Below, piece after piece: positions 4,650 to 62,955 of a stretch of DNA of 64,000 nt; position 1 is the first letter of the stretch, and each line of letters opens with the position of its first letter. The DNA is from Spinellus fusiger (Eukaryota > Mucoromycota > Mucoromycetes > Mucorales > Phycomycetaceae). The stretch covers positions 62,001 to 126,000 of the forward strand of contig JALLLS010000083.1 of assembly GCA_025094145.1 (NCBI GenBank). Reading direction: 5' to 3'. Both the position numbers and the translations under genes were made by a program. The notes under the pieces were generated by a model. The model did no database searches and had not been told where the DNA came from. It was given only the letters and a program-made list of their open reading frames with translations.

Positions 4650-4750
4650 AAAATAAGTAACCAGTTGTTTTCAAACCTCGGGCTATTTCTATATTAAAAA
4701 GATAACATACACTATCTTCCTTTTCTTTCATAAAAGCTACTTTTCATATA

Positions 4751-4939
4751 ATGTCTCCACTATTTAGCACCATAAACATCTTCACCAAGACCCATGAGAT
4801 GCATAGAAAGGATACCTGCTTTGAAACTTGTTCAGCCATCATTCATCAGGTGCTGAACCTGAAATCTACTCAGGTCGAGGCATTTCGTATGTTCAACGTG
4901 CCTACTTCCACTGTGACAGACTGCCATGAACTCAAATAA
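4751..4939 (+). other. Hypothetical 62-codon ORF, kept in both arms
   Basis: ATG-initiated frame ending in VPTSTVTDCHELK. The second copy at 62662-62850 (minus) differs at two residues. The segment QVEAFRMFNVPTSTVTD resembles the helix-turn-helix recognition region of Tc1-type transposases, and Tc1 3'-end debris follows directly, so it may be the N-terminal piece of a collapsed element. It could equally be a chance frame. Confidence 0.3.
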
Positions 4940-5400
4940 TTCTCTTTCTTCTAAACCCTGGAGTCAGTTACCGCCCACAGATGAACAATGCTAGAGATTA
5001 TAAGAACAAGGCAACTCAATTAGAGAGTATTAAATGGTATAGTAGTTGCTTTTTACTGGCTGTTGCAATACTGATCCCAATCCAGTGGAGGGAGCATCTG
5101 TAGACTTAATTGAATATTATTAGAAAGGACAAGATTTTATATTCCACTAGACAAAGGTTAGAGACTGCCCTGATGCTGGAATGGGGCAAAATATCGAAGG
5201 CAGTGACAGATATCCTCATTGCCAGTATGGGGCGGAGATATTAGACCTTTATTAATGCCAAAGAATAATGGTGGTTACTAAGCAACCTTACAATAAAAAC
5301 CACTGTTATTTATTATCAACACTCCTATCTTTATCTATTCAAAGTTATACGTCTTTAGCCAATGAATTCATAAAGTGATAGCACTATCAAGATAAAGTAG
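4940..5400 (+). pseudogene. Degenerate Tc1/mariner transposase 3' end
   Basis: Translations in shifting frames give remnants of the Tc1 DDE region: QMNNARDYK (from DNA..H), a decayed SPDLNPIEHLW-type segment, and a C-terminal ILIASMGRR...INAKE block. The same sequence occurs at about 9740-10187 and, inverted, at 57480-57800 and 62230-62640. Multiple stops make it non-coding. Confidence 0.7.
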
Positions 5401-5536
5401 GAGCCTGAAAAAGACTGTCTGAATTCAAAATGGCCTAAAATTTTTTACTGTTGACATTGGACAGTCACAAATATTCATCTATAAATATAATTCATGCAAT
5501 CTACCTATTGTCTGCACGTTGATAGTCTAATACACC

Positions 5537-8500
5537 ATGACAAACACACCTTCTGCTCACCGATCTTCAACATCTCTCCCACAGACTCCCAAAAAGCACT
5601 CTTCTCTTAAGTCTCTTAAAAGACCCTCATCTCTTCAATGTCCCAAAATACACTCTTCTCTGCTGTCTCCCACAAGACACCACCACCAACAGTCTCCTGC
5701 AAGACCCTCTTCTTTGTACTCTGGCTCACAGTCTCCTGAAAGACAGTCTGGTTTACATCCTTACATGTCTCGCAGTCTCCTATCCACCCTGAGACAAGAA
5801 CCATCCGAGTCACCTCTACGCGACTACCTCTCTTCCCAGGTCAACATCCAGGACCACTCACCTGTAAAGGAAGACTGTATCTCCCAGCACTCTTTCGACT
5901 CTTCACCAAAACGCCTTTTTGAAAGCGGCAGTGAACTGTATCACAATGAGTCCTCAGTAGAGTACACTTCAAGAGAGCCCTCTCTCATTAACAAGCATGA
6001 AGCCAGCCAGCTCTTGAGCTCAGTTGCTTCCAAGAAAAAGTCTGACAATGAGGCCATCCAATGCGATGCTACACCTCAGGACAAAACAAAAAGACCTCTG
6101 TCCAATGTCTACAACAAGGACATAAAGAGCCAGTTAAAAGAACTCTTTCTGGGGGCGATGGATAGCCATTCACCCTACAATGCCATCTACTATGCTGAGA
6201 AGATTGCTGGTATGTCAGGTAAGAAAGATACTCTACTCAATACAAAAAGGAGTGAGAGTGAGAAAGAATGTGTATATTAAACAAGAAATATTCTCTTTTA
6301 TATACATGTGCACTGTAGACAGAACCAACAACGACTGTCTTGACTTGATTGGACTCTACATGCAAACAGGCCAACACCAAAGAGCCTTGTATTTGCTAAA
6401 CCGAGACAATCTTGTGAAGGGTGAAGTCCGTGGCCAGTACTTTGCGGCTGTGTGTACGGTAAGCAACTACAGAAAACACTGCATAAAAACATGCATGTGT
6501 ATGTGTGTATGTGTGTATTTATGTATGTATCTATTTCTTATAGAACACCTTGGGACGTTATAAGAAGACATTTGACTACATTGGCGCCCACACTCTATTC
6601 AACACAACAAGCAAATACCTTTTCTTATTAATAACTAAGCAGCTAACCAGATAACTAACCATGCTCATTTGTTTGTTTGTATGGGGAAATAGAGTGGACA
6701 CCTTCAAGCACTATCAAGGTACAGTAGAAAACACACTATAGATAGCAACCCTCTGTTCACTTTCTCTGTTCTTGTACTAATGCATTTGTGTTGATTCATC
6801 ATTAGACTGAGTCTTTGATCAATTTGGAAAAAGGAAGAGCGTACTTGAAGTTGGATCAACCAGAGCTAGCCTCGGCTCAGTTCGTGAATGCACTGATGAT
6901 AGATGCACGGTGTTGTGAGGTAAAGTACTTTATTTTTTATTTTATATCAAGAACTATGTAATAACGAAGAGATGTCTAGGCATTGGACCTTTTAGTAGAT
7001 AACAAACTACTATCAGAAGAAGTTGGTAAGAGTCATGACACTTCAATGTGTTTGTTTGTTTTTAGAATGAGAAAAAGAAAGGATAATAACTCTTGGCTAT
7101 TAGAATGGGCCTTTGTGACGGGTCTTGACTATGAAAAACACTGTGGATCCAATGATGAAGTGATCCGATCTTTGTATTCGATGAAGATCAGACAGGTAAG
7201 TGATCTTATTTCGCATTCGGTGGACTCATTGAACTCTGTAGTACGCTCATCTCAGAGATGTTGATGCAGCCGAGAATGTATTAAGAACTCATCTTGGATT
7301 AAAAGACTGCACAGAAATATTGCTAAGCAAAGCAGAGGTCTACTTCAGCAATGGTTATTATCGAGAGGCTCTGCAGGTGTGCCTGAGGTAAGGACATTCA
7401 CCACCCATTGTCATTGGAGAATAGACAACTCAAGCCTAGAATTCTATTCTATAGAGTGCGTCAGAAGGATAAATACAATGCTCGGATTATTCCAATCCTA
7501 GCACTATGTTATTATGAACTGAAGATGAAGGTTGAGCTTCATGGTCTTATTATGGGTCTTACGGACCTATTGTCTGATAGATTCGAAGCAGGGTATGCAG
7601 TAGCCCTTTTTAACTTGATGAATGAAGACTATTTTTCAGCAAAGATTTGCTTTTTGTAAGTGGACTCAATGCTTATATATATCTTTCATTCATTCATCTT
7701 AACTGAATGTGTGTTTTGATACTAGGGATGTTCTAAAGGCCAATCGATATATGGAGCACGCCTGGATGGGGTTAGGTGACACATGTGCACTTATGGGCGA
7801 CCATGAAGCAGGCATTAAGGCCTACCAAGAATGCAATACAATGGTGTCTAGGTAATGTGTGCTAGTGGCTTCGACACTTACTGACGAGTTATTCTTTTTA
7901 AAAAAAACAGTTCGCATCGTCCCTACCTGGCTCTTGGAAGGCATTACATGAAGATTGGCCATCTGGATGAGGCTATTAAGAACCTATCCAAAAGCAACAA
8001 AATCTATAAGAATGACCCCCATATCTACCTTGAGATGAGTATTTACTATTTGAAAAAGAAAGAGTAAGTGGGACTGGACACGTTGAAAATACACAGTTGA
8101 TTCATTATGACATTAGCTACCGGGCTGCCCTAGACGGGTTGAGCATGGCAGCTGCGGCCACAGATGAGAGGCATGAGAACCTGGGTGATTTCTGGCAGTC
8201 TCTTTGGTGCAGTTTTGGAGAGTGCCATCGTCATCTAGAATAAGTATATCTTTCTATTTATTTATTTTTGTTGGTTGCTTATTTTTATGGCTGCTGTGTA
8301 GGGAGTATGACCGTGCCATTAGTTGTTTCGAGTTGGCAGAAACTCATGGCAGACAGGTGAGTAATATTTGCATATCTAAAGGTGAGATATGCTATCTTCA
8401 GGGCCAGTATAAAAAAGCAATCCATTATTCTGAAGAGGTATGTGATGAATAGCACTCTATAGAGTATAGGCAAGGAATAATTTACACACTTTTTTCATTC

Positions 8501-8832
8501 TTGTTTAGGCCAAGCAAATCTGTACTGAAAAAGGCCTTGCTGAGAAGTGCTTGCTAAAAGCAATGGCAGCGCAAGAAAAGCTTGCGTCAAGAGTGAAGAA
8601 GACGCCCTTGTGTTCGAAAGATGCGACGAGCACATATCACAGTGCAGTGGATCGTGAAGTGGTTGGTGAGCTGTATGATGAGGAAAGACTTCATGATAAA
8701 AAGATGGAGACTTTCTTTGTTAGTGAGATGGCAGCAGCCAAGGAACGTGTGGGAGATTTTCTTTCTGTGGAGCAGAAACCAAAAAAGAAGTTCAAAGAGA
8801 CGAAGAATGGCCAAGAAGAAGAAGAGTTGTAA
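5537..8832 (+). CDS. CDC16: Anaphase-promoting complex subunit Cdc16/APC6, copy 1 (one doubtful splice donor)
   Basis: TPR scaffold subunit of the APC/C ubiquitin ligase, which acts in the nucleus at mitosis. Residues 1 to ~190 are a Ser/Pro-rich, probably disordered extension with repeated SP/TP-R-SSL units. Cdc16 homology follows: YNAIYYAEKIAGM, LIGLYMQTGQHQRALYLL, WTPSSTIK, GRAYLKLDQPELASAQF, CEALDLLVDNKLLSEE, then TPR units such as AWMGLGDTCALMG and YLALGRHYMKIGHLDEA. It ends in a basic/acidic tail at TAA 8832. Introns are short. One is GC-AG (donor GCAAAT at 6611; phase fits only this donor). The donor after GECHRHLE reads ATAAGT at 8240, where the other copy has GTAAGT; without splicing, the frame stops at once (GAA TAA). 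The gene may therefore be truncated, use a rare AT-AG intron, or contain a sequence error. Confidence 0.85.
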
Positions 8833-8847
8833 TCTGTCTGCAGATGC

Positions 8848-9145
8848 CTGTGTCTGTTTATGTTCGTATATGTCTGTTTAAATTTACTTATGTCTAACTA
8901 TGTCTACTTTATCTACTTATGCTCACCTTCATCTACCTTCATCTACCTTCATCTACCTATGCCCACCTTCATCTACATTTATCTACCTATGCCCACCTAT
9001 GCCCACCTATGCTTACTCTTATCTACATATATATGTCTAACTATGTTTACCTATGTTTGTCTGCGTCTGTCTGCGTCTGTCTGTGTCTTTATTGTGTCTG
9101 TCTGTGTCTGTCTGTGTCTGTCTGTGTCTGTCTGCGTCTGTCTGT
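8848..9145 (+). repeat. Hexamer and longer tandem repeats downstream of CDC16
   Basis: Directly after the CDC16 stop: imperfect units of ATCTACCTTC and TATGCCCACC types, followed by an array of the hexamer TGTCTG with CGTCTG variants (about 9055-9145). The inverted copy at 58405-58745 has a different unit composition, as expected for a slippage-prone array. Confidence 0.85.
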
Positions 9146-9560
9146 GTGAGATTGTTTGGACAGGTAAAATAATGAGACTGAACAAAGGCAAGATTTTTAT
9201 TGAGTGAAGAAAAGTTCCTGATTTATATTTTTTGTGTGTACCTATCTTTCAGTGGCCTCTACCCTAGGGTTGATTCAATGGATAAGTACAACATTATATA
9301 ACCTTAAGTTATTTGCCTTTACTTTAATCACCTTTGATGGGTCATTATTGTCTACTAAGAATTTATTGATGATAGTAGTTCTGATTAAGTGTCCAATGGT
9401 ACACTAGGCTAAGAAGGTGATTTGTATTTACAACCAATTAGCGATATTGATACAGAGATGTACTATAGTGCTTGTGTACACCCAGGCTTTCATAGATGAT
9501 TCTGCATGTCACAGCACACTACTCATTGTTGACCAATCCATGGAGAATCTTGGGATTAAA
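9146..9560 (+). repeat. Dispersed repeat module R1
   Basis: Starts GTGTGAGATTGTTTGGACAG and includes TGCCTATCTTTCAGTGG-type sequence, a CACCTTTGATGGGTCATTATTG segment and TCATAGATGATTCTGCATG. It is also found at 54640-55160 (diverged), 58020-58420 (inverted, part of the right arm) and 63190-63610. No coding potential seen. It always borders Tc1 debris, so it may be part of a composite or non-autonomous element. Confidence 0.75.
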
Positions 9561-10187
9561 GTCAGAACACAACAATGGCCTTTAATCCCGAGAATGTCCA
9601 AGAAACAAGGTAGTTTGGAGGATGTAGTGTGATAGTATGGGGCTGCTTTAGTGGGGGAGAGTGTTGAGAGATGGATCGTAGTGAAGGATAGAATACTCCA
9701 ACAAGTACATCAATGTCTTGGGAGGTGTCTAATTCCATGAACTCGAGCATTTCTCTCTCTTCTAAACCCTGGAGTCAGTTACCGCCCACAGATGAACAAT
9801 GCTAGACCCTATCTACGTAAGACAACTCGAGAATGGGAAGGCAGCAAATGGTGTGGAAACCATTCCTTACTGGCTCTTGCAAAGTCTTTATCTCAATCTA
9901 ATTGAGCATCTGTGGGCCCACCTCTAGAAGATCATTAGGAAGGACAAGATTTTATATTCCACTAAACAAAAGTTAGAGACTGCCCTGATGCTGGAATGGG
10001 GCAAAGTATCTAAAAGAAGTGACATATATCCTCATTGCCAGCATAGGGCATAGATGTCAGACTATTGTTAATGCCAAAGAATAATGGTGGTTACTAAGCA
10101 ACCTTACAATAAAACTTTTTTTTGTATTATCAACACTACTATCCTTATGCATTGAGAGTCTTATGTTTTTATCTAATGAATTCATAA
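9561..10187 (+). pseudogene. Tc1/mariner transposase remnant
   Basis: Plus-strand frames preserve VVWRM-CDSMGLL-like (VMVWGCF) sequence, a decayed D-region and the common 3' end with ILIASIG and INAKE motifs, interrupted by many stops. The 3' end carries the family terminus GAATTCATAAAG...CAAGATAAAGTA, shared with 5370-5400. Confidence 0.7.
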
Positions 10188-10259
10188 AGTTATAACACTA
10201 TCAAGATAAAGTACAAAAAAAAGGAAACTTACATTTAAAAACTTCCGGTTACTTGTTGA

Positions 10260-11060
10260 GGGTCACTTTATGTATGACTGCAGGTAAATCAGCTAAGCAA
10301 TTGGGTATTGCTTGTTGAACTACATACAACTATCTTTAAGGAGATCAGAAACAAATCATACAAAATATGAATGATCTTAAAATTAAGCCTGTGGAGACAA
10401 ATAAACAGGCCGATCAGCATTATTAAATGAAGACTATAAGAAACATCTTTCTGAAACGTTTCTTTTTCTGGATCACCCTTCTGTAAAATTAGATCAAGCA
10501 ATAGACAGTCTTGCGTAAAAATTCAAAGACCTAATAGTATCCAAAATAACGGTCTACAAATTCATAACAGAAGAATGTGTTTTATCATTTAAAAAAGAAT
10601 ACTTTCATTCAAAGGAAGAAAACTGAGCATCCAAAATGAAAAAAAAAAAAACTATTGTAACAGTTACTGGTCATTAACTTTATTGTAAGCACTTTGGATG
10701 TTTTGGACCTTTACAATGAATTAAAGGACACCATATAATAATGTACAATGCACTTATTCATACAGCCGAAAGAATGAGCAGGTTTATTGTAAGTCGTAGC
10801 TATGGATGTGTATACCTTCCACCAGACTTTCCTAATCTTAATTCCATCGAGTAGTTTTGGTCTGTTGTGAAGATTCAGCTTAAAAGAGAAAAGCTATTAG
10901 AAAATGAGACGTTAAACATGAGAATTACTGAAGCGTGTAGCGATGTTCTTATCATTTATCTTAAGGTATTTTGCCACCATTCTTCTTTGAAACTTGAAAC
11001 ATGCTCAAGTAAAAATCTTCTGATAAATTTTACACACTTTATACAAAAATAATTTATGGA
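10260..11060 (+). pseudogene. Degenerate DDE transposase of a second family (IS630/Tc1 superfamily)
   Basis: Broken frames contain IMYNALIHTAERMSRFI (from DNAPIHT), SYGCVYLPPDFPNLNSIE and FWSVVKIQLKREKLL, the classic D..H...LPPYSP-LNPIE-FWS arrangement. Upstream frames give VTVTGH and KGHHIIM. The Glu-region change to NSIE and several stops show decay. Distinct from the other Tc1 copies in the window. Confidence 0.65.
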
Positions 11061-12980: not shown

Positions 12981-13672
12981 CTACAGGCTATTTGGCATGG
13001 TTACTGGACCAACCACTTCCACAATTCTCTTTTCCTCTCTGTCTCTCTGTCTCTCTGTCTCCCTTTTCCAATCACTTGCTACAATACTTTTGTGAGTGGT
13101 TGTTCCATCTTCCATCAATATTAGGTGGCACTCTAGACCCCAGAAACGTAGCAATGACTCTTCATAGACTTTCTTGACAAAATCAACAGCCTTTCGTTCA
13201 TCCTTCTCAAGCATCACTAGTTCTGACTTCTCACCGTGACGAATGGCTCCCCAGACCATAACTGAGGATCTTCCACTCTTGAATGTGGGATCAAGACAAT
13301 CTTTTTTATAGGCTTCTCCATCCTTACGCCAAACGTGAACCACTCGACTGTTTTTGCCAATTTCGAAACTACTTTCGTCAGTCCATATAACTTTTTTCCA
13401 CATATCAACAGTCCAGTGGAAATGTTCTTTGGCAAATCTGAGTCTTCTTTCTTGATGTGTTTCATTCAAAAAAGATTTATTTCTTGCCACTCGGCTAAAT
13501 ATACCCCCTTTATACAGTACACGTCTAACAATGCAATTGCTGCATTTTTCAGGCATTGATGTAATCATCTCACTTAAATTCAATCGTCTGTTAGTTGCAT
13601 ATTAAGTTAAATATTGATATGTCTTTATTAAGAAGAAAAGAAGAAGACTGCTACCAACATCTCTTATGTAAG
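12981..13672 (-). pseudogene. Truncated Tc1 transposase (same family as the 44.2-kb element)
   Basis: About 200 codons match the 44.3-45.1 kb transposase almost residue for residue: KCSNCIVRRVLYKGG, FAKEHFHWTVDMWKK, IWTDESSFEIG (first catalytic Asp), SSVMVWGAIRHG, ILMEDGTTTHKS (second Asp). The N-terminal HTH coding region is missing. The 3' end breaks off after SDWKR into a (CTCTCTGT)n-type microsatellite at about 13035-13068, so the third acidic residue and the inverted repeats are lost. Unlike the 44-kb copy, it lacks the 32-bp duplication. Confidence 0.9.
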
Positions 13673-22997: not shown

Positions 22998-23401
22998 TCT
23001 TTATTATTGTGAAATAACAAAAGCTTTGGATAGAGACTTTTTACGTTTAATAGAAAAGAGAGATAAAGAGATAAAGATATGGGTAGATGAAGAGATGAAA
23101 ATGAATAAAGACTTAAAATAAAGGTCCCATATAAAACCTTCAGTGATCAGCAAAGACAATGATAGTATATATTCCTGACTGATGCCACTGTTCTGCACTA
23201 CCAATGAGCTGACCTTTCACTCTTCCATGTTGCTTCAATTGATTCCTGTATGATTCTATTCACTTTTATTATAATTCAGATACTCTATTCTTCCTGAGGG
23301 CAGTGGATGGATGTAGTATTTAAACAAGAAGCAGCAAACCTCACAGCTATCAATCATCAAGACATTGAGGCAATTGTTGGGATTCTTTCTGTTCATCATC
23401 T

Positions 23402-23437
<36 letters not shown>

Positions 23438-23747
23438 CACTGAAGCAGTTAGTCACTGTGTTATCAGCATCACCACTGTTTTTTCTTGCGACAAATACTC
23501 TGAGAAGCGGTCTGTGCTCTTTATTATCGGAGCAAAGACACCACTATCTCTACTAATGGGCCTGGCTCTGAACTCCCATAACCCTTCAACGGAATACCAC
23601 TGTTCATGTGCCCACCGCATGTATTCTTAATCTCACCTGGTTGTTGCCCCCACATACTTCTTAGTGAGCATAATAAACCCCATCCTCAGCACGTGCAGAT
23701 GGAGTCTATAATTTCTGAGAAAGTCGACTACTGTTGGCAAGTGGGCT
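22998..23747 (+). repeat. Left arm of a 750-bp near-perfect inverted repeat
   Basis: Pairs with 24165-24914; paired coordinates sum to 47,912 at every checked point, so there is no net length difference. The ends are exact: base 22998 pairs with 24914 and 23747 with 24165, and pairing fails one base beyond either end. The arm contains a (CA)n(TA)n tract near 23403-23438, which differs slightly between arms. The arms hold an open frame starting MDVVFKQEAANLTAIN, with no recognised family. Confidence 0.95.
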
Positions 23748-24164: not shown

Positions 24165-24474
24165 AGCCCACTTGCCAACAGTAGTCGACTTTCTCAGAAA
24201 TTATAGACTCCATCTGCACGTGCTGAGGATGGGGTTTATTATGCTCACTAAGAAGTATGTGGGGGCAACAACCAGGTGAGATTAAGAATACATGCGGTGG
24301 GCACATGAACAGTGGTATTCCGTTGAAGGGTTATGGGAGTTCAGAGCCAGGCCCATTAGTAGAGATAGTGGTGTCTTTGCTCCGATAATAAAGAGCACAG
24401 ACCGCTTCTCAGAGTATTTGTCGCAAGAAAAAACAGTGGTGATGCTGATAACACAGTGACTAACTGCTTCAGTG

Positions 24475-24510
<36 letters not shown>

Positions 24511-42474: not shown

Positions 42475-44064
42475 TTATTTCTTCGCTGCCTTTGCCATCT
42501 TTTCAGCAACACATGCAGTGAGAGCAGCACCCACACCACTACCATCCTTGGTCAGACTTAAAGTAACTGCCTTTTGGATGTCGGGGTGTTCGGGCAATAG
42601 TTCACTGAGAGCAACGTACATTCTTGATCTGAAAGAAGGATAAAACTCAAACAGAGATCCATCGATACCAATCTCGACACCTTCCTCAGGAATACCACAG
42701 TGCTTTACGATGGCTGCAACAGCGGTGGCAGCTAATCTTGCAGCACGAGTTCCCACCAGTTCACACACTCTCTTGATGATTTTGCATTCAACAATGGATA
42801 GATTGGTCAAGCTAAGATTGCTGTCCAACACTTCCTTTGTATGAATAAGATCGTCGGTGTCATCAGCCTCAATGTTGGACATAAAGGAAGTCTCGAATGA
42901 CCAGTTGGTTGATAATTCTTTGGACCAGGCATTAGGGTTGAATTCACCCTTGAATCGGAAAAGCAGCTCACGATCAATCATGTCCGTCAACACAATACGG
43001 ACGATCTCTCCCAAGTACATTCCTGAAATTGTTTTTTCGAATATCTGGCTGTGGGGATTGATGGATTCTCTATCGAGTCTATTGTCATAACGGGTCAGAG
43101 GGAGGATCATACGCTCATTATCAAAAGCACCAAACTCCATGTTGATTGTCATTTCATTGGATTCTGTGGGTCCTCCCTTCCACTTGCCAATCTTGGACAC
43201 TTGTTCAATATAAGCACCGTTAGACCCTGTTCCCAAAATTAAGCCAGCCAATGTGCGGGGTTTGTTGTAGGCATTTGAAAGAAGAGTGCCTACAGTATCA
43301 TTGACAAGAGCAGATATTTTGACAGGAATATGTTTTCTTAACAAGGCATCTTGAAGAAGTATGACAGGATCCTTTCCAATAGCTCCTGTGCATGCATATC
43401 CTTTGGTCCATGTAGATAAAAGACCACGATTAATCTAACTCTATGTGAGTAAATATATCACCATGGAGTTTATCCAGCATTTACCGATGTCTGAAAAACA
43501 GGGAATGAGAAAGTATAACCCAACGAAATCTGGGTCTCTTTTTCATCCAATCCTTGCTCAGTAAGGAAGGTATCGATGAACTCGGCAATAAAGTCTGTGG
43601 ATCCATAGTAAGATTTATTTTCCAATCTTCCCTCAACTTACCACACAAATCACGTATAGGGCCAGTCTGGAGAGCAGTGGTTATCTTGGCCTTGCTGGAT
43701 AGAATCTTGTATTTACCCTCTCCTTCAAGTGTCACCAATACAACACGAAGATTGGTTCCACCCAGATCCAAGGCGAGAAACTGGCCAGTTTCATGACCTA
43801 GAGCACGTGTTGGGGAAGTCCTTTAAAAACAGTCTCTCTTTTACCTGACAAATGACCTTCTACAAAGGAAGGAATCATAGCCAAGGTATGACCTTCTTGG
43901 TCAAGACCCTTTTGCATTTCACCCATAAAGTGGTCCTGGATTTTCAGGAGTTGCTCGGTGGAAAGTGTGAATTCTTTAGCGACCTCCTGCAAAAAAGCTT
44001 CTTGGGCATCGGAACCACCAATCTCCACAACAGGAACGGCTTCTTTAAACGAGTGAGCGTGCAT
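42475..44064 (-). CDS. HXK: Hexokinase
   Basis: Cytosolic ATP:hexose 6-phosphotransferase, entry step of glycolysis. Four exons, about 480 residues, from ATG 44064 (MHAHSFKEAVPVVE). Signatures: EETGQ-type region then LALDLGGTNLRVVLV (phosphate-binding 1), LGYTFSFPVFQTS, LSTWTKGYACTGAIGKDP (substrate loop), ALVNDTVGTLL (catalytic Asp), LILGTGSNGAYIE, NMEFGAFDN, KTISGMYLGEIVR, and GIDGSLFEFYPSF followed by DGSGVGAAL (adenosine site). The first intron (47 bases, phase 1) joins GHLSG to HETGQF. A Tc1 element sits 126 bases upstream of the start codon. Confidence 0.96.
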
Positions 44065-44189: not shown

Positions 44190-45552
44190 CAGTGGGGTAG
44201 CAAAAAAATTGGCATTTTTTTAGAGATCCGATATATTTCATATCTTACATAAGAGACACTTGTAGCAGTTTTCTTCCTTTCTTCTTAATAAAAGTATATC
44301 CATATTTAATTTAAAATGCAACTAACAGACGATCAGAAATTTACCATTGTTAATTTTAGACAAGCAACTATAAAAGTAAAGGAAATAGTTGAAAGAACTG
44401 AAGTAAAGCTGCGAACAATTTACAATGTTCTAAATCAACAAAAGACAAGAGGAACTACCAAACGCCAAGAAGGTTCAGGAAGACCCAAAATATTCAATGA
44501 AAGAGGAATAAGACACCTTCTGAACGTTATTGGCAAGAACAGACGATTGAATTTAAGTGAGATAACTACATCAATGCCTGAAAAATGCAGCAATTGCATT
44601 GTTAGACGTGTACTGTATAAAGGGGGTATATTTAGCCGAGTGGCAAGAAATAAATCTTTTTTGAATGAAACACATCAAGAAATAAATCTTTTTTGAATGA
44701 AACACATCAAGAAAGAAGACTCAGATTTGCCAAAGAACATTTCCACTGGACTGTTGATATGTGGAAAAAAGTTATATGGACTGACGAAAGTAGTTTCGAA
44801 ATTGGCAAAAACAGTCGAGTGGTTCACGTTTGGCGTAAGGATGGAGAAGCCTATAAAAAAGATTGTCTTGATCCCACATTCAAGAGTGGAAGATCCTCAG
44901 TTATGGTCTGGGGAGCCATTCGTCACGGTGAGAAGTCAGAACTAGTGATGCTTGAGAAGGATGAACGAAAGGCTGTTGATTTTGTCAAGAAAGTCTATGA
45001 AGAGTCATTGCTACGTTTCTGGGGTCTAGAGTGCCACCTAATATTGATGGAAGATGGAACAACCACTCACAAAAGTATTGTAGCAAGTGATTGGAAAAGA
45101 TAGATAGAAATTGATAGTGTGGAGTGGCCTGCTCAATCACCCGATCTGAACCCCATTGAAAACCTTTGGATGCAAATGAAAGACAGGGTCCAAGAGAGAT
45201 GCAACGGTACTGTCAAGACAGACAAGTTCAAAACTATTATACAAGAAGCCTGGGATTCCTTTGAGCCAAAAACATGGAATTCTTTGGTTGAGACAATGCC
45301 AGCACGAATGCAAGAAGTCATCAAGAACAAGGGTGGGAGTACCCATTATTAAAGCTATATTTTTAATATTTTTTTATAAGTAAATGTAAAAATAAATTAC
45401 ATATACATATTCTATAGCCTTTCTTTAACATAATATGAGCTTTATTACAGTAGAAAATACGTTTTACTTCTCTTGATACAGGAAAAACACTGTATTGATG
45501 ATATGAAATCAATCGGATTTTTTCAAATTGCCAATTTTTTGCTACCCCACTG
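44190..45552 (+). mobile_element. Full-length Tc1/mariner element with TA target duplication
   Basis: Starts CAGTGGGGTAGCAAAAAAAT (44190) and ends with the matching reverse complement ...TTTTTTGCTACCCCACTG (45552), flanked by TA at 44188-44189 and 45553-45554. Inverted repeats of ~25 bases continue into TTGGCA. One transposase lies inside. A truncated relative is at 12981-13672. It is inserted immediately upstream of the hexokinase gene. Confidence 0.95.
44316..45352 (+). pseudogene. Tc1 transposase broken by a 32-bp duplication and a stop
   Basis: ATG 44316 opens with an HTH domain (QLTDDQKFTIVNFRQAT, RTEVKLRTIYNVLNQ). The catalytic region has IWTDESSFEIG (D), ILMEDGTTTHKS (D) and SPDLNPIENLWMQMKD (E), ending KGGSTHY. 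A perfect 32-bp tandem duplication (44648-44679 repeated at 44680-44711) shifts the frame, and a TAG at 45101-45103 follows SDWKR. The DDE residues themselves are intact. Confidence 0.95.
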
Positions 45553-50218: not shown

Positions 50219-53200
50219 TTAAATATAGTTATCCAAGTTCAACTCGGCCTGTAGCTTGGAGACCAAGCGATCTACTGTCGTCAAAACATGAACAGAGTTG
50301 AAAGGAGTGTCATCGAAAATAAAGGCCCAGTGGTATCTCCAGATAGCTTGCATAACACAGCTAAAGAGAGAGGCAGCAGGAAGATCGGGGTGGCAGGGGA
50401 GAGGAAAAAGGAAGGAGCGGAGTAAATGGTCAAGAGCAGGAATAGTAGGCATAGCATTAAGGTATTTAATGCAAAAGGCACGCCAAACCTCAAACTTGGA
50501 CGGGCATTCATAGAGAAAGTGGGCTTGTGTGTCCGTAGAAGATTTGCATAGAAGGCAGATGTCTGAAGTGAGTGTCAGTGGTAGGATAGGGTGGAGGAGT
50601 GAGCGACAAGAGATCTTATTATGTATGGCCCTATACCAAATGGTTCGAACTGAATGGTGGATAGGAAAAGACCAAAAGGCACGCCATTGTGTCGGTCGTA
50701 GGGGTGGGTTGAAGAGAGGAGGTGGGTGTATTTTAGGCAGGCATAGTATTCGATAGATACCAGGAGACAGTTTCATCCATAAGACTTTGGGAATCATAGA
50801 GTTAAGCATAGGAGTGGGATCCACTGAATCACCGAGTCTTGGAGGTAGATTGGGGGAGGTGTCTTGGAGGAAGTTTGTAGGCAGACATGCTCTAAGCATA
50901 AAGGACTACAATGAGTAGTCTGAACTATCCAGCAAGCGGAGGAACTTCTTAATGATGGTGGGGTGATGGGTCAACTCTGGCCGTAGTCTTCGTTGGAGGG
51001 AGTCTATACTGGGGTCAAATATAAATACATCGGACATACACAGTTGGCGCCAAGAACGAGGAAAGGATTGAGAGTGAGGTACAGGCAGACAGGCAGAAGA
51101 CAGTGGTAGAGCAAGACAAGTAGCAGTGTTCAGGGTGAGGTACTTGAAATCTTGAGGTAAGAGATCAAAGGCTGCAAAAATGTTATGAAAGACACTGTCC
51201 ATGTGTCTAAAGGCAGTAGGACGAAGGTCAGGGCACAAGAGAGGTAGGCGTGGATCTGATTCTGGTGTGGAAAGAAGTGCTGATAGCCACAGAGTGACCA
51301 GGCCATTAGACACCCTTTCAGAGGCACAGAGAGGTCCTAACCACCGAAGTTGAAGAGCACATTGCTGTAGTAAAGGGTCAAGCAATTCAAGACCACCTTG
51401 CTTCAAAAGAGCAAACATAAAACCCAGTTTCACTGGAGGAAACATACGGTGTTGCATAAACTGTCCTGTCTGAGATCGGATGCGAGAAAGGAAGTCTTTG
51501 GGCACTGATATAACTCTCAAGACATGCCAGAGTTTTGAAAGGATCAATGTGTTAATCACAGTGGTCTTACCCCAAACAGAGAGGGAGCGGGAGATATGGA
51601 ACTTGTATGCCGTCTTGATGCGGTTAAAAAGAGAAGCCAGAAAAGTATTGCGCTGTGCAGTGGAGGAGTACAAAGGAAAGCCCAAGTATATCAATGGGTG
51701 TGGCGACCGTCGATCATGCCAATCCGTGATCTGATACCATGCAAGTATTGGTGACCAGAATGACAATGGTGCTTCACTCAAAGAAAAGGCCTGGGTCTTG
51801 TGCATATGTCTTAAGGTGGGTTTGTAGGCAATTCATATGTGCTATGTTTGGCAAAAACACTACTAGATCATCAGCATAGGCTAACAACTTGATGGGTGGT
51901 GGCTGAGGCCTCAAAGTGGGACGAGAAGGGCGGATGCCAGAGAGTTGGGTGTCATGAAGCAGGCGACGAATTAGAGGCTCTAAAGTAAGATTGAACAGAA
52001 TAGGTGACAATGGATCCCCTTGACACAAGCCTCTTAGCTGTGGGAGAGGGCGAGATAAGTGTCCATTGACGTTGATCTGTATCTTTGTAAAGAAGAGTTG
52101 GCAGATACAAGTGACAATGGCAGGTGAAAAGTTGAACTTTTGGAGGACCCTCTGAAGGTACCCTGCATGTATACGATCATATGCTTTTTCTTGGTCGATT
52201 AGAAGCTCGATGGCTGTAGAACTAGTAGTGCGTGCATGTTCCATCAACATCTTAGTCATCGTGCCGTTATCAGCAATGAAACGACCCTTCACAAAATCAG
52301 TTTGATAGGGCGATATGAGTGGACCAGCAGCAGGGATGAGACGGGAGCTCAAGAGACGAGTAAACACCTTAGTATCTGTATTGATCAGTGCAATTGGACG
52401 CTAGTTCTTCAATGAGTACAAATCCCCTCTCTTTGGCAGCAGACTGACACATGTGGATTGCCAGGAAGCCGGAAAGATACCCTTGGTGAGAGCATGGTTT
52501 TACACTTGTTTGGTAAGGGAAGCAGAGAAAGGATGAGAGACAATGAGCTGTAGTATCTCATAGGTCAGTCCATCAGGTCCAGGACTACTCACACGTGGAG
52601 AGCGAGAGGTACCAGCCTTAATCTCTTCTAGAAGAAATAGAGTATCCAAAGCATCTCTGACAGAATCATTCAGAGCTAGGTCGGGTGGCAAGTTGTTAAG
52701 AAGGTCTTCTAGTGCTGCTGGATCCAATGGGTCTGGAGTATACAACTGCTCATAAAAGCAAGCTGCAGCTTCTTTCATCCCTTCAGGATCAATGTTCAGT
52801 GTGTTATTGGTGGGATGGCGAAGACTGACAATATTCTTGCGGGTATGGTGACTCTCCACTGTTCTCTTCAAGTATCCAGCAGAGGTCTCTCCATTCTCTC
52901 TCCAATGTTTACCTGCACGAAGGGTTTGTTGTTCAGTGTGTTCATATTGTATGGCATGAAGCTGCCTCTCAATCACTGGCAGTTGAAAATTCTGACCAGG
53001 ATTGGAAGCAAGCTTCTTTACTAACCGGTTTCTCTTACTCTGCAGCATTTGTTCCATCTTCTGCAGATTCATCTGTGGTCTTCTATTAAAGGATTTTATA
53101 AATCCACATACAGCAGTCTTCGAAAGATCCCATTGTATCTGTAGCGAGTCTCGCACTGAGAAGGCTTTAATAGTCATAGTGATGAAATCAGATAGTTCTT

Positions 53201-54002
53201 GGCAAAAATCATCTTTTAGCGCCAGTCGTGGGTTAGCACGCCATAATCCCTTGCCTGTAGTTATAGAAGAAGGAAAGAAGAAAAGAAGAAAAAGAAAAAA
53301 GAAGATGATCTGTCCATCTTCCATTGATGTAGGTCACTTCTGACTGAACATGGTAGGAGAAGATGTCTTTTGAGGAAAAAATATAGTCAATGGTGGAGGA
53401 TTGTACACCTCGTTGGAAGGTTGGTAGTGGTTTTCACCCTCAGGTATCACACTGTCAATGAGTTGGTCCTGAACATACTGCAGCCAAGGCATAGGTGCAA
53501 GACAAGGTCGATGAGCATATGCATAATGTGGATAGTTGAGATCTCCAAGCAAGATGAAGTTGGTGGGGTTAGAGGGCAAAAGATGAGGGTTGGCAAGGAG
53601 AGAAGAAAGGAATGAAGAGCAGGTAGGTGAAGTGGAAGGTGCATACAGCACACAGATGTGGATAGGAGGAAAGAGCATGTTGGCATGCACCACTGTAGCA
53701 GTAATGCATCGGCCACAGAGGCTAAAGAGAGGAACAATGAGTGTAATGTCGGAAGATAATGATACTAGGCCACAGTGAGGTGACCATAGTGAGGAGGAGG
53801 TGCGAAATTGTTGGTTAAAGGTGTTTTGCATAGTGTCTGTATTGGCATGGGTTTCCTGGAGTGCAAGAAGATCCAAGCCTTTACTGCATAGATATTGAAT
53901 AAATAGTGAGCGTGTGTTGGAGTGGCCAGTTTTCACTAGCTCTCTGCAATCCATAGAGGCTAATCTAATCATAAAGTGGTGAGAACTCCTCTTCATCTTC
54001 AC
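50219..54002 (-). pseudogene. LINE ORF2: endonuclease-reverse transcriptase, multiply broken
   Basis: Endonuclease (54002-53334): LLALQETHAN (catalytic Glu), ICVLYAPS, ILLGDLNYP. Connecting region (53324-52500): KGLWRANPRLA, FYEQLYTPDPLD, SSPGPDGLTYEIL. RT (about 52500-51774): stop in place of Trp before RPIALINTD, then ISPYQTDFVKGRFIADN, LIDQEKAYDRI (first Asp), LCQGDPLSPILFNL, LLAYADDLVVFL (YADD). Thumb (51805-50906): YLGFPLYSS, FHISRSLSVWGKTTVIN, KQGGLELLDP. The end (50899-50219) has a zinc motif CLLCKSSTDTQAHFLYEC. Breaks: TGA after the endonuclease, a frameshift and TAG before RT motif 1, a frameshift after YADD and a TAG before the last segment. An A/G-rich insertion lies at 53276-53310. 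Confidence 0.93.
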
Positions 54003-54606: not shown

Positions 54607-54639
54607 TGTTTTAAGAAGCTTCTATGAGTTTGGAGGGCG

Positions 54640-55340
54640 ACTGTGATTATTCAGACAAGTAGATAATAACGAGACTGAACAAAGATGCTATTTATTAAAG
54701 TGAAGGGTGGTTCCTTATTTATACTTTTTGTGGGTGCCTATCTTTCAGTGGTATTCTACCTTTTGGCAGTTAATGATTAGTCCATGGCCTAGCTTATTGA
54801 TAGATGCAACTGTATGGTTGGTGGAGATGATCTATCCTATGGTAGATTACATAGGTGGAGCTTTATGGTTGGTTCATTGAATAAGCACACCATTATAGAA
54901 CCTTCAGTTATGTGTCTTTACTTTAATCACCTTTGATGCGTCATTATTGTCTACTAAGGATTTATTGATGATAGTAGTTCTGATTAAGTGTCCAATGATA
55001 CACCAGGCTAAGAAGGTGATTTGTAGTTACAACCAATTAGTGAGATGATACAGAGATGTACTATGGTACTTGTGTGCACTCAAGCTTTCATAGAGTGTTC
55101 TGAAGGTCACAGCATACTACTCACGTTGACCAATTCATGGAGAATCGTTGGATTAAAGTCAAAACATGACATAGTCTCCATCAACAGATACTTTGACTCA
55201 TCAGACCAGATGACACCCCCTTACTCATCACTTGTCCAACTGACATGCTCCTTAGTCCAACGAGGCCGTTTTTCTTTGTGTTTTGGAGACAAGACTGGCT
55301 TGTGGTCTACAGTAAAAAAATTCAAACTCTAACTGCTTGT
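54640..55340. repeat. Diverged R1 module plus Tc1 transposase fragment
   Basis: 54640-55150 resembles R1 (AACGAGACTGAACAAAG, TGCCTATCTTTCAGTGG). 55160-55335, read on the minus strand, gives KHKEKRPRWTKEHVSWT and VIWSDESKYLL, the region around the first catalytic Asp of a Tc1 transposase. It directly abuts the 5' end of the LINE. Confidence 0.7.
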
Positions 55341-55429
55341 AGTAGCTGATAAGGGTGTCTCTATACACATCCATCTCATACTTCAACATTTCCAATTTCA
55401 TTTCAGTGGATTGTATAATTTTTTAAAAA

Positions 55430-56210: not shown

Positions 56211-57373
56211 CATTCAATTCTTTGTCTTTGTCTTTGTCTTTGTCTTTGATTTTTTTATGTTTTTTTTGTTTATGCTTCTATTATTGCCTGTTGTTTCTGT
56301 TACGTCATGCCAACTCCACCCACTGTAAAAGCGGACATTAATAAAGAAAAATTAAACCTTAGAGGAGAAAACAGACACTGATGAGCAAACAGCTACTGAA
56401 CAAGAAACCAGTATCAAGTAAGCAGTTATTAATATGCAAGCAACCGCTACTGAGAGAATGAACACTACTGTGCCCATTGGCAGTTAATTTTTGTTGACAT
56501 TTCTTTCTCTCCCTTGACTATTATTTCTTTTTCTTTTGCAACCGTTTCTCTCCTTTTCAGAGAAAGAGACACTGTTGGCTAAATGTATTTATAGTTTATT
56601 TTCTGGTTCTACATGGACACCCTTCTTTCGCCAGACTCCCCATGGCAACACTGCTCAGTGTGACATGTGTCTGTTGCTAAAGATCTAATTTCATTAAATT
56701 CTTACAAAGAAAAAGAAGAAGAAACACTAGTGGTGAATCACTTGACCCATAAAAGTCCTACAAGCCTTGTAAAAGAAAAGAAAAAAAAATGTGTTGATAA
56801 AGTCATACGCAACACCATTCTGTATGAGCACAATGTCAATGGCCTCAGCCAAATAGAAATTGCCACTGTAGCTGGTAAAGTGACCCTCAATAAGCAACCA
56901 CTTTCTTCTTTCTTTCAGATGCAGATTTCCTTTCTTAGACTTATACTTTATCTTAATAGTGTTATAACTTTATGAATTTGTAATAGAGCCGAGACTATAG
57001 TGTCGATTGTCGACATCTTACATGCATTGACGGTGTTGGACGTGCATGAGATGTAAGTAGTTATAGTTAACAACACAAGGAGACAGTGTATAAAAACCAC
57101 ATAATCTAAACATCAATAAAACAATCAACCTTATTTTTGTTTGTTAATGTTAAGTATCGTTGGGACTTTTGAGACAAGCAAGGATTGCTTAAAAGAACAG
57201 TTGCCTAGTTACCCGTTGTGATCAAATTGTGTGTTATGTCCCTGTTCATGTACCCTCTTTGATTTCCCTAGACTAGCCTTTATGCCAAAACGCTATTTCG
57301 TCGTTCCTACTAGAGACCGAATATCAATACACTGTTCTCTTTAGTAGTCCTTTTGATAACCTCAGTGCTCTTT
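56211..57373. other. Intergenic with a possible transposase N-terminus
   Basis: A (CTTTGT)n tract lies at 56222-56248. The frame 56667-56975 opens at GTG, not ATG, and reads CVDKVIRNTILYEHNVNG, then LSQIEIATVAGKVTLNK, which resembles a helix-turn-helix of an IS630/Tc1-type transposase. No catalytic region follows. Low confidence. Confidence 0.3.
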
Positions 57374-57479
57374 ATTGCGAATTCATTAGATAAAAACATA
57401 AGACTCTCAATGCATAAAGATAGTAGTGTTGATAATAAATAGTAGTGGCTTTTATTAAAAGGTTGCTTAGTAACCACCA

Positions 57480-58420
57480 TTATTCTTTGGTATTAACAAT
57501 AGTCTGACATCTATGCCCTATGCTGACAATGAGGGTGTTTATTGCCTTTGCTATTTTTGTCCCATTCCAGCATCAGGGCAGTCCCTAACTATTGTTTGGT
57601 AGAATGTAGCTTTCTGTCCTTCTAATTGTATTTTTTAAGTGAGTCCATATATGCTCCATTGGATTGAAATCAATATTGCAACAGCCAGTAAAAAGCGACT
57701 ACTATACCATTCATTTACTACTCTCTAATTGAGTTACCTTGTTCTTATAATCTCTAGCATTGTTCATCTGTAGGCAGTAACTGACTCCAGGGTTTAGAAG
57801 AGAGAGAAATGCTCGAGTTCATGGAATTAGACATCTCCCAAGACATTGATGTACTTGTTGGAGTATTCTATCCTTCACTACGATCCATCTCTCAACACTC
57901 TCCCCCACTAAAGCAGCCCCATACTATCACACTACATCCTCCAAACTACCTTGTTTCTTGGACATTCTCGGGATTAAAGGCCATTGTTGTGTTCTGACTT
58001 TAATCCGATGATTCTCCATGGATTAGTCAACAATGAATAGTGTGCTGTGACATGTAGAATCATCCATGAAAGCCTGAGTGCACACAAGCACCATAGTACA
58101 TCTCTGTATCAAGCTCACTAATTGGTTGTAAACACAAATCACCTTCTTAGCCTAGTGTACCATTGGACACTTAATCAGAACTACTATCATCAATAAATTC
58201 TTAGTAGACAATAATGACCCATCAAAGGTGATTAAAGTAAAGGCAAATAACTTAAGGTTATATAATGTTGTACTTATCCATTGAATCAACCCTAGGGTAG
58301 AGGCCACTGAAAGATAGGTACACACAAAAAATATAAATCAGGAACTTTTCTTCACTCAATAAAAATCTTGCCTTTGTTCAGTCTCACTATTTTACCTGTC
58401 CAAACAATCTCACACAGACA
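57480..58420 (-). pseudogene. Right-arm copy of Tc1 remnant plus R1 module
   Basis: Inverted counterpart of 9146-10187: Tc1 3' debris (57480-58010) and R1 (58020-58420). Not coding. Confidence 0.75.
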
Positions 58421-58745
58421 GACGCAGACAGACACAAACAGACACAAACAGACACAAACAGACACAAACAGACACAGACAGACACAGACAGACGCAGACA
58501 GACACAGACAGACGCAGACAGACGCAGACAGACGCAGACAAACATAGGTAAACATAGTTAGACATATATATGTAGATAAGAGTAAGCATAGGTGGGCATA
58601 GGTGGGCATAGGTGGGCATAGGTAGATAAATGTAGATGAAGGTAGATGAAGGTAGATGAAGGTGAGCATAAGTAGATAAAGTAGACATAGTTAGACATAA
58701 GTAAATTTAAACAGACATATACGAACATAAACAGACACAGGCATC
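58421..58745 (-). repeat. Right-arm copy of the CDC16-flanking hexamer array
   Basis: Units CAGACA with variants CAGACG and CAAACA, then TAGGTGGGCA and TAGATGAAGG units. It differs from the left-arm array in unit order and number, including a block of CAAACAGACA absent from copy 1. Confidence 0.85.
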
Positions 58746-58755
58746 TGCAGACAGA

Positions 58756-61700
58756 TTACAACTCTTCTTCTTGGCCATTCTTCGTCTCTTTGAACTTCTT
58801 TTTTGGTTTCTGCTCCACAGAAAGAAAATCTCCCACACGTTCCTTGGCTCCTGCCAACTCACTGTCAAAGAAACGCTTCATCTTTCCATGCTGAGGTCTT
58901 TCCTCATCATACAGTCCACCAATTACCTCTCGATCCACTGCACAGTGGTGTGCGTTCGTCGCATCTTTCGAACACAAGGGCGTCTTCTTCACTCTTGACG
59001 CAAGCTTTTCTTGCGCTGCCATTGCTTTTAGCAAGCGTTCTTCAACCAGGCCTTTGTCAGTACAGGCTCTTCTGGCCTAAATAAGAAAGAAAAAAGAGTC
59101 TAAATTATTCCTTGTCTGTACTTTATATTGAATGCTATTCATTACATACCTCTTCAAAATAGTTGATTGCTTTTTTGTATTGGCCCTGAAGATAGCATAT
59201 CTCACCTTTAGATATGCAAATATCACTCACCTGTCTGCCATGAGTTTCCGCCAACTCGAAACAACTGAAATCACGGTCATACTCTCTACACAGCAGCCAT
59301 AAAAATAAGCAACCAACAAAAATAAATAAATAGAAAGATATACTTACTCTAGATGACGATAGCACTCTCCAAAAACTGCACCAAAGAGACTGCCAGAAAT
59401 CACCCAGGTTCTCATGCCTCTTATCTGTGGCCGCAGCTGCCATGCTCAACCCGTCTAGGGCAGCCCGGTAGCTAATGTCATAATGAATCAACTGTGTATT
59501 TTCAACGTGTCCAGTCCCACTTACTCTTTCTTTTTCAAATAGTAAATACCCATCTCAAGGTAGATATGGGGTCATTCTTATACATTTTGTTGCTTTTGGA
59601 TAGGTTTTTAATGGCCATATCCAGATGGCCAATCTTCATGTAATGCCTTCCAAGAGCCAGGTAGGGACGATGCGAACTGTTTTTTTTTAAAAAAGAATAA
59701 CTCGTCAGTAAGTGTCGAAGCCACTAGCACACATTGCCTAGACACTATTGTATTGCATTCTTGGTAGGCCTTAATGCCTGCTTCATCGTCGCCCATAAGT
59801 GCACATGTGTCACCTAACCCCATCCAGGCGTGCTCCATATATCGATTGGCCTTTAGAACATCCCTAGTATCAAAACACACATTCAGTTAAGATGAATGAA
59901 TGAAAGATATATATAAGCATTGAGTCCACTTACAAAAAGCAAATCTTTGCTGAAAAATAGTCTTCATTCATCAAGTTAAAAAGGGCTACTGCATACCCTG
60001 CTTCGAATCTATCAGACAATAGGTCCGTAAGACCCATAATAAGACCATGAAGCTCAACCTTCATCTTCAGTTCATAATAACATAGTGCTAGGATTGGAAT
60101 AATCCGAGCATTGTATTTATCCTTCTGACGCACTCTATAGAATAGAATTCTAGGCTTGAGTTGTCTATTCTCCAATGACAATGGGTGGTGAATGTCCTTA
60201 CCTCAGGCACACCTGCAGAGCCTCTCGATAATAACCATTGCTGAAGTAGACCTCTGCTTTGCGTAGCAATATTTCTGTGCAGTCTTTTAATCCAAGATGA
60301 GTTCTTAATACATTCTCGGCTGCATCAACATCTCTGAGATGAGCGTACTACAGAGTTCAATGAGTCCACCGAATGCGAAATAAGATCACTTACCTGTCTG
60401 ATCTTCATCGAATACAAAGATCGGATCACTTCATCATTGGATCCACAGTGTTTTTCATAGTCAAGACCCGTCACAAAGGCCCATTCTAATAGCCAAGAAT
60501 TATTATCCTTTCTTTTTCTCATTCTAAAAACAAACAAACACATTGAAGTGTCATGACTCTTACCAACTTCTTCTGATAGTAGTTTGTTATCTACTAAGAG
60601 GTCCAATGCCTAGACATCTCTTCGTTATTACATAGTTCTTGATATAAAATAAAAAATAAAGTACTTTACCTCACAACACCGTGCATCTATCATCAGTGCA
60701 TTCACGAACTGAGCCGAGGCTAGCTCTGGTTGATCCAACTTCAAGTACGCTCTTCCTCTTTCCAAATTGATCAAAGACTCAGTCTAATGATGAATCAACA
60801 CAAATGCATTAGTACAAGAACAGAGAAAGTGAACAGAGGGTTGCTATCTATAGTGTGTTTTCTACTGTACCTTGATAGTGCTTGAAGGTGTCCACTCTAT
60901 TTCCCCATACAAACAAACAAATGAACATGGTTAGTTATCTGGTTAGCTGCTTAGTTATTAATAAGAAAAGGTACTTGCTTGTTGTGTTGAATAGAGTGTG
61001 GGCGCCAATGTAGTCAAATGTCTTCTTGTAACGTCCCAAGGTGTTCTATAAGAAATAGATACATACATAAATACACACATACACACATACACACATACAC
61101 ATGCATGTCTTTATGCAGTGTTTTCTGTAGTTGCTTACCGTACACACAGCCGCAAAGTACTGGCCACGGACTTCACCCTTCACAAGATTGTTTTTGTCTA
61201 GCAAATACAAGGCTCTTTCGTGTTGGCCTGTTTGCATGTAGAGTCCAATCAAGTCGAGACAGTCGTTGTTGGTTCTGTCTACAGTGCACATGTATATATA
61301 TAAAAGAGAATATTTCTTGTTTAATATACACATTCTTTCTCACTCTCACTCCTTTTTGTATTGAGTAGATTATCTTCCTTACCTGACATATCAGCAATCT
61401 TCTCAGCATAGTAGATAGCATTGTAGGGTGAATGGCTATCCATCGCCCCCAGAAAGAGTTCTTTTAACTGGATCTTTATGTCCTTGTTGTAGACATTGGA
61501 CAGAGGTCTTTTTGTTTTGTCCTGAGGTGTAGCATCGCATTGGATGGCCTCATTGTCAGACTTTTTCTTGGAAGCAACTAAGCTCAAGAGCTGGCTGGCT
61601 TCATGCTTGTTAATGAGAGAGGGCTCTCTTGGGGTGTACTCTGCTGAGGACTCATTGTGACACAGTTCACTGCCGCTTTCAAAAGGGCGTTTTGGTGAAG

Positions 61701-62064
61701 AGTCGAAAGAGTGCTGGGAGATACAGTCTTCCTTTACAGGTGAGTGGTCCTGGATGTTGACCTGGGAAGAGAGGTAGTCGTGTAGAGGTGACTCGGATGG
61801 TTCTTGTCTCAGGGTGGATAGGAGACTGCGAGACATGTAAGGATGTAAACCTGACTGTCTTTCAGGAGACTGTGAGCCAGAGTACAAAGAAGAGGGTCTT
61901 GCAGGAGACTGTTGGTGGTGGTGTCTTGTGGGAGACAGCAGAGAAGAGTGTCTTTTGGGACATTGAAGAGATGAGGGTCTTTTAAGAGACTTAAGAGAAG
62001 AGTGCTTTTTGGGAGTCTGTGGGAGAGATGTTGAAGATCGGTGAGCAGAAGGTGTGTTTGTCAT
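58756..62064 (-). pseudogene. CDC16: CDC16/APC6 copy 2 with frameshifts
   Basis: Inverted duplicate of 5537-8832 with the same exon layout and the same Ser/Pro-rich N-terminal extension. Compared with copy 1: a G4 run at 59568-59571 (C4 in the gene) where copy 1 has C5 shifts the frame within a TPR after KNDP and leads to an early stop. An A5 run at 59371-59375 (T5) where copy 1 has T4 adds a base near SLWCSF. The donor at 59737 reads GC where copy 1 has GT. The donor that is ATAAGT in copy 1 is an ordinary GTAAGT here (59347). The GC-AG intron at 60978 has the strong donor GCAAGT. The last exon differs from copy 1 far more than the rest. Confidence 0.85.
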
Positions 62065-62229
62065 GGTGTATTAGACTATCAACGTGCAGACAATAGGTAG
62101 ATTGCATGAATTATATTTATAGATGAATATTTGTGACTGTCCAATGTCAACAGTAAAAAAATTTAGGCCATTTAGAACTCAGACAGTCTTTTTCAGGCTC
62201 CTACTTTATCTTAATAGTGCTATCACTTT

Positions 62230-62640
62230 ATGAATTCATTGGCTAAAGACGTATAACTTTGAATAGATAAAGATAGGAGTGTTGATAATAAATAACAGTG
62301 GTTTTTATTGTAAGGTTGCTTAGTAACCACCATTATTCTTTGGCATTAATAAAGGTCTGATATCTCCGCCCCATACTGGCAATGAGGATATCTGTCACTG
62401 CCTTCGATATTTTGCCCCATTCCAGCATCAGGGCAGTCTCTAACCTTTGTCTAGTGGAATATAAAATCTTGTCCTTTCCAATAATATTCAATTAAGTCTA
62501 CAGATGCTCCCTCCACTGGATTGGGATCAGTATTGCAACAGCCAGTAAAAAGCAACTACTATACCATTTAATACTCTCTAATTGAGTTGCCTTGTTCTTA
62601 TAATCTCTAGCATTGTTCATCTGTGGGCGGTAACTGACTC
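62230..62640 (-). pseudogene. Right-arm copy of Tc1 3' debris
   Basis: Counterpart of 4940-5400, same decayed motifs. The 62-codon frame (62662-62850) that precedes it on the minus strand corresponds to 4751-4939. Confidence 0.7.
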
Positions 62641-62955
62641 CAGGGTTTAGAAGAGAGAGAATTACTTGAGTTCATGGCAGTCTGTCACAGTGGAAGTAGG
62701 CACGTTAAACATACGAAATGCCTCGACCTGAGTAGATTTCAGGTTCAGCACCTGATGAATGATGGCTGAACAAGTTTCAAAGCAGGTATCCTTTCTATAC
62801 ATCTCATGGGTCTTGGTGAAGATGTTTATGGTGCTAAATGGTGGAGACATTATATGAAAAGTAGCTTTTATGAAAGAAAAGGAAGATAGTGTATGTTATC
62901 TTTTTAATATAGAAATAGCCCGAAGTTTGAAAACAACTTGTTACTTTTGTTGGGT

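Follow-up and report, generated by a model that had tools for sequence, protein, structure and literature searches.

Why does one stretch of the Spinellus fusiger genome carry the same cell-cycle gene twice, in opposite orientations and about 47 kb apart? The stretch, called the window here, comprises 64,000 nucleotides of assembly GCA_025094145.1 (contig JALLLS010000083.1), which are positions 62001-126000 of the contig called C180 below; the genome has 38,076,753 bases on 197 contigs. Its two arms, A and B, each contain a copy of CDC16 (APC6), a gene for a subunit of the anaphase-promoting complex/cyclosome (APC/C). They look like two members, apparently decaying, of a Tc1-borne CDC16 family. 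To judge from the DNA comparisons given below, the arms are probably Tc1 elements with CDC16 as cargo, which would have spread partly by recombination between Tc1 elements and by segmental duplication, perhaps also by transposition.

From two arms to a gene family

When the window was aligned with itself (blastn), 4655-10183 matched 62946-57379 on the minus strand with 94.857% identity over 5600 columns, with a bit score of 8650, the next-best self-match having 1380. The inverted arms described in the first-pass annotation were recovered in this way, with its coordinates right within about 10 bases. It had called the arms nearly identical, which was true of blocks at 98-99% and not of the stretches at 88% (8458-8822) and 86% (8816-9088), nor of the last few hundred bases, where divergence begins at about 9805. 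Outside the arms the alignment collapsed on both sides. The arms are real, and the flanks of A and B beyond the Tc1 ends are unrelated, no homology being present in 500 bp on either side. The real element ends differ from the arm ends that had been given, and lie at about 4640-10270 for A and 56876-62962 for B.

Element A (4640..10270, about 5.6 kb, left end set by eye) lies with all its parts on the plus strand. Its left inverted repeat has decayed, and of the roughly 1362 positions of Tc1 the left arm (4669..5402) retains 32-275 and 824-1304, with the middle missing. The cargo (5403..9576) is composed of 53 bp of unplaced origin, the CDC16 promoter and gene, a microsatellite and a dispersed repeat (9160-9576). 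The CDC16 copy (5537..8832) has 14 exons and 791 codons; 11 of its 13 introns are GT-AG, intron 3 is GC-AG, a type common to most of the family, with its GC-type donor changed at +5, and intron 12 has the donor AT instead of GT. The right Tc1 arm (9577..10271, Tc1 positions 669-1364) includes the terminal inverted repeat (10249..10270, 3 mismatches), with TA at the end. The dispersed repeat of the cargo (9160-9575) also occurs at 54864-55166 and 63160-63612, and has at least 60 matches in the genome.

Element B (56876..62962, 6087 bp) lies on the minus strand, as do its parts, and has TA at both ends. Its left inverted repeat (62941..62962) showed 0 mismatches to the 22-base pattern, and the left Tc1 arm (62199..62962) retains Tc1 positions 1-272 and 824-1304, the middle being missing as in A. 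The CDC16 copy (58756..62064) has one-base length differences in homopolymers of exons 11 and 12, where sequencing error is possible, and a GC donor in intron 10; as spliced, it meets a stop at codon 594 of 791. The right Tc1 arm (56913..57982, Tc1 positions 669-1271 and 1269-1334) and the right inverted repeat (56876..56897, 4 mismatches) complete the element. About 400 bp of other DNA (window 56979-57378) interrupts this right arm.

The CDC16 gene that had been annotated in each arm was confirmed, since the product matched ANAPC3 and TPR repeats of Pfam and its best solved match was Schizosaccharomyces pombe Cut9 (E 5.3e-41). A protein database search for homologues gave none past threshold. 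DNA and protein searches placed the gene at 20 loci in the genome, which is a lower bound: 19 cargo copies and one native copy, C128. Three copies are on contig C180, the third (C180_12k) outside the window. Gene identity was 99.4% for B and C180_12k, 97.1% for A and B, 97.1% for A and C180_12k, and 97.2% for A and C113_181k. In the tree B joined C180_12k (100/100), then A (96/96), then C113 (100/100), while a second recent clade of nine copies was located on C136, C79, C40, C15 and C192. With midpoint rooting, C128 and the decayed, long-branched C17 stood outside the 18 other rows (fork 100/100). A and B are thus no private pair, as B is nearer to C180_12k than to A. The earlier idea of a Tc1-mediated duplication was right in that Tc1 sequence is present in both arms and Tc1 is involved, and wrong in deriving a private pair from one duplication.

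The native C128 gene encodes 752 amino acids with regular splice sites throughout. No Tc1 match was observed in 9 kb, with a single inverted-repeat hit at 4 mismatches, and Cut9 was matched with 217 bits versus 170 bits for an intact cargo copy. Homology between cargo and C128 starts 81 bp upstream of the start codon. Because the introns were kept, the capture took place at the DNA level, and the microsatellite of the cargo may have grown from a short GTCTGT-rich stretch 3' of the native gene.

Three plain Tc1-like elements were read, about 1362 bp long with inverted repeats at both ends. A Tc1-type transposase domain (PF01498, HTH_Tnp_Tc3_2, E 7.1e-11) was identified in the open reading frame (ORF) of one of the three (L070). 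A and B contain truncated Tc1 pieces only, and a 62-residue stretch from the left arm of A gave no significant Pfam match. The inverted-repeat pattern, with up to 2 mismatches, was found at 334 genome sites versus 2 for the reversed control. Another sequence, TACTTTATCTTGATAGTG, was tried as the transposon end (312 sites versus 3 in the control) and rejected, the true ends lying about 58 bp further out; the long inverted pairs found with it on C122 and C90 are palindromic arrangements.

The CDC16 unit has a constant layout, in which Tc1 runs from its left end to about 1315, is followed by the cargo, and resumes at about 668 to continue as far as its right end; the two arms point in the same direction. 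The left Tc1 arm adjoins the gene in 17 of the 19 cargo copies, ending at 1304-1317 in 15 and at 1334 in C118 and C17; no left arm in direct orientation was found for C126 and C175 within the sequence examined. Right Tc1 sequence is present in 16 of the 19, starting at 667-670 in 15, with 1292-1363 only in C121, and none was found for C192, C118 and C17 within 1.8, 1.5 and 0.8 kb past the gene. Since these junctions are common to most copies, CDC16 was probably captured by Tc1 a single time.

Identity steps inside the Tc1 arms

Flanks of up to 500 bp were compared for 17 copies (23 flanks, several copies being represented by one side only; C113 and C17 were left out), and corresponded to 13 unrelated loci. 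Long shared flanks occurred solely among C136_114k, C136_126k, C136_164k and C192, and between C79_345k and C40; short or weak matches of 17-123 bp were also present. The right flanks of C136_114k and C136_126k are 100% identical over 500 bp and the left flanks of C136_114k and C136_164k 99.5%, which makes them segmental copies.

Transposition of whole units predicts that identity between two copies steps down at the inverted repeats only, and exchange of cargo between elements predicts steps inside Tc1 homology, where steps were indeed seen. The right arms differed by 14.2% for A and B (606 sites), 17.8% for A and C180_12k (652), 18.6% for A and C113 (488) and 16.2% for C156 and C175 (598), whereas the cargo of these pairs was 96.9, 96.9, 96.2 and 97.0% identical. 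When C136_230k was compared with C136_114k or C15, the outer left arm was at 65-77% in 100-bp bins, while the inner left arm was at 97.9 and 97.7% and the cargo at 97.4 and 97.7%, respectively. In several pairs identity fell from 97-100% to about 65-86% inside the Tc1 arm, before the flanks turned unrelated; past the steps the flanks align at 35-59%, the level of unrelated DNA. Arm rows with missing or truncated arms or with two clades were set aside (C79_239k/C79_345k, C79_239k/C136_230k, C121/C126 and C136_230k/A), and for A/C113 and C156/C175 the left arm was likewise disregarded. The value of 78.3% for the right arm of B and C180_12k is lowered by the 400 bp that interrupt the arm of B, and was not used as evidence.

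Further traces of exchange were found in individual copies. Both ends of C136_230k have a rare variant of the inverted repeat, while the inside of its right arm matches that of C136_114k, a copy with the common variant, at 98.1%. The rare variant occurred without mismatch at one site (its own right end), with 1 mismatch at 12 sites including its own left end, and with up to 2 at 38, against 0 for the control. The right Tc1 of C136_164k continues into CDC16 promoter sequence, a trace of recombination, and the C-terminal exons are mosaic, with a synonymous divergence (dS) between C113 and C180_12k of 0.593 at codons 690-791 versus 0.026 at codons 200-620.

The simplest route to this pattern would begin with a Tc1 that captured native CDC16 with introns and promoter, probably once. 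A break left by excision of a resident Tc1 may then be repaired from an ectopic CDC16-bearing element, in which case the resident outer ends would be kept, the cargo would be copied in, and the tract would end inside the arms. Segmental duplication adds further copies, whole-unit transposition may add some, and selection on the coding sequence would keep part of the family. We infer from the alignments a mixture in which exchange was important, with segmental duplication evident in the shared flanks and transposition possible.

The rival that survives best is a non-autonomous composite Tc1 that moves as a fixed unit by cut-and-paste, with transposase from other Tc1s and later conversion of some outer arms; it is a real possibility, though clearly the less probable one. 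Several observations favour it and weigh against the mixture with exchange. Element B is bounded on either side by an inverted repeat and TA, and C136_114k by TA. The right arms of C136_230k, C136_114k and C15 are common to the end (96-98%), with unrelated right flanks. B and C180_12k have the cargo and most of both arms in common (right arm 95.3% over 591 sites) and unrelated flanks, the left side of C180_12k departs from A and B in no more than its outermost 100 bp (57-63%), and the outer left arm of A and B is at 95.2%. Arms that match as the cargo does to the end are the outcome expected from whole-unit transposition, and the divergent outer arms could result from later conversion by other Tc1s. 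Other points count against the mixture: of 14 right ends 13 have TA but of 9 left ends 5 do, the ends being set by eye, some rows sharing a site and the decayed left end of A not being counted as TA; no empty insertion site was shown; and only 3 of the 19 cargo copies are fully intact in frame and splice sites (C180_12k, C113_181k and C136_164k). Fixed-unit movement is opposed by the right arms that differ by 14-19% in four pairs where the cargo differs by 3-4%, by the outer left arm of C136_230k at 65-77% to its relatives, and by left ends that often have no regular repeat. The mixture including exchange is preferred.

A single inverted segmental duplication within the contig would account for two arms on one contig in opposite orientation with long blocks at 98-99%, and segmental copies do occur in the family (C136_114k and C136_126k). 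It is very improbable and was rejected, because the similarity of A and B ends with Tc1, the flanks are unrelated over the 500 bp compared on either side, B is nearer to the third copy C180_12k, and both arms belong to a genome-wide family. For a subtelomeric amplification, four units of TTAGGG were searched for in the assembly without a match. An assembly artefact in one or both arms is the least likely explanation, as A and B are about 5% diverged, substitutions included, and are unlike each other in flanks and right Tc1 arms, even if sequence quality may vary, with many small indels in C40, C79_345k and C136_126k and the C40 copy near the end of a short contig.

Selection on the copies and other features of the window

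Apart from the three intact cargo copies, the native C128 is also intact in frame and splice sites. The two window copies failed this test, A through the donor of intron 12 and B through the premature stop and the GC donor of intron 10. C136_114k has in-frame stops in the joined exons of a fuller alignment and was not counted as intact, while C136_230k, C15 and C79_239k have one lesion each.

Selection was assessed by the ratio of nonsynonymous to synonymous divergence (dN/dS), in a test which ignores transition bias and in which second-clade pairs share rows. Copies of the second clade are under purifying selection (five pairs, dN/dS 0.19-0.34; N 29-68, S 25-88; binomial p 1.1e-4 to 1.5e-19). 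For pairs of intact copies dN/dS was 0.28 (C136_164k/C113, p 4.1e-23) and 0.50 (C180_12k/C113, p 1.4e-3), while pairs of broken copies were near neutral (C121/C126, 0.80, p 0.21; C156/C175, 0.68, p 0.23). In the clade of the arms selection is mostly relaxed, with 0.67 for C180_12k/A (p 0.075), 0.61 for A/B (p 0.032) and 0.48 for C180_12k/B (p 0.16); A/C113 gave 0.36 (p 8.5e-5).

When C113 was compared with C136_114k, divergence was 0.165-0.193 in the dead Tc1 arms and in the 3' repeat, 0.200 at four-fold sites (p 0.43 versus dead DNA), 0.060 in introns (p 3.0e-16) and 0.039 in the promoter (p 5.6e-6). The introns thus diverged about three times less than the four-fold sites and the dead Tc1 (48 of 795 versus 52 of 260 sites). 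Constraint and exon-limited exchange are both candidate causes of this conservation.

Between the arms, the hexokinase gene that had been annotated was confirmed at 42475-43344 (PF03727, E 2.6e-82), and an inversion of the 47 kb by recombination between A and B is possible in principle. Another apparent Tc1-type element is present as inverted copies (13063-13486 and 45099-44676) at 100% identity, within window 12981-13583 and 44538-45108, and the ORF at 12981-13583 matches HTH_Tnp_Tc3_2. Two inverted arms of 750 bp, 99.9% identical (22998-23747 and 24165-24914), are separated by 417 bp. Possible retrotransposon remains lie at 53334-54002 and 50906-51805 (-), the first with a weak match to Exo_endo_phos (E 1.5e-4) that falls short of the curated cut-off, the second with no Pfam match. 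At two places examined elsewhere in the genome, inverted Tc1 pairs 8-10 kb apart enclose other, ordinary-looking genes: on C158 (L088) two full Tc1s enclose a gene read as ribosomal P0, and on C160 (L086) a pair encloses an ORF read as Gln-rich and as having a zinc-finger-like motif, of which the 1251 bp tested are single copy.

Related systems and meaning

The nearest known kind of element is Pack-Mariner of rice and maize (PMC8903248). According to that text, Pack-Mariner of rice is likewise a class II inverted-repeat element with a TA target and host coding DNA inside, mobilisation of neighbouring insertions has been proposed for the acquisition, the captured gene pieces are 58-280 bp in the examples, and Pack-Mariners are mostly low in copy number (PMC8903248). 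A review covers capture in plants, and the words mariner, composite and fungi do not appear in its text (PMC13317346). In Spinellus the captured host coding DNA is a whole CDC16, the native C128 being without Tc1. The CDC16 unit differs from Pack-Mariner in containing a complete 14-exon gene with its promoter, in its at least 19 copies, in partial selection and in the signs of exchange between elements. No publication on CDC16 in Tc1 elements was found in open-access PubMed Central, among the matches listed, as judged by titles and the starts of abstracts.

In template-directed gap repair after excision of Tc1 or P elements, an ectopic copy fills the break and new DNA is placed between the ends. 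That is known as a laboratory reaction, while here a natural spread of a host gene is suggested by the sequence. The wtf genes of fission yeast lie scattered among Tf repeats, and recombination has reshuffled them. They resemble the CDC16 family as a repeat-flanked family that is spread and homogenised by ectopic recombination, and differ in that the CDC16 family gives no evidence of drive and derives from the gene for a core subunit of the cell-cycle machinery.

A bolder and tentative reading, which we rate as rather doubtful, is that CDC16 has become a mobile gene that rides Tc1, is copied into broken resident Tc1s and is partly kept functional by selection, which would give rise to diversifying extra APC/C subunits. 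If this is true, the extra subunits could modify cell division, aid the escape of Tc1 from silencing, or act selfishly. The best-known cases of gene capture by DNA transposons are short gene pieces in plants, while the cargo here is an entire gene, introns included, for a subunit of an essential complex, in at least 19 copies. The identity steps inside the Tc1 arms provide a testable case for the spread of a host gene through recombination of resident transposons, beyond the transposition of a fixed unit.

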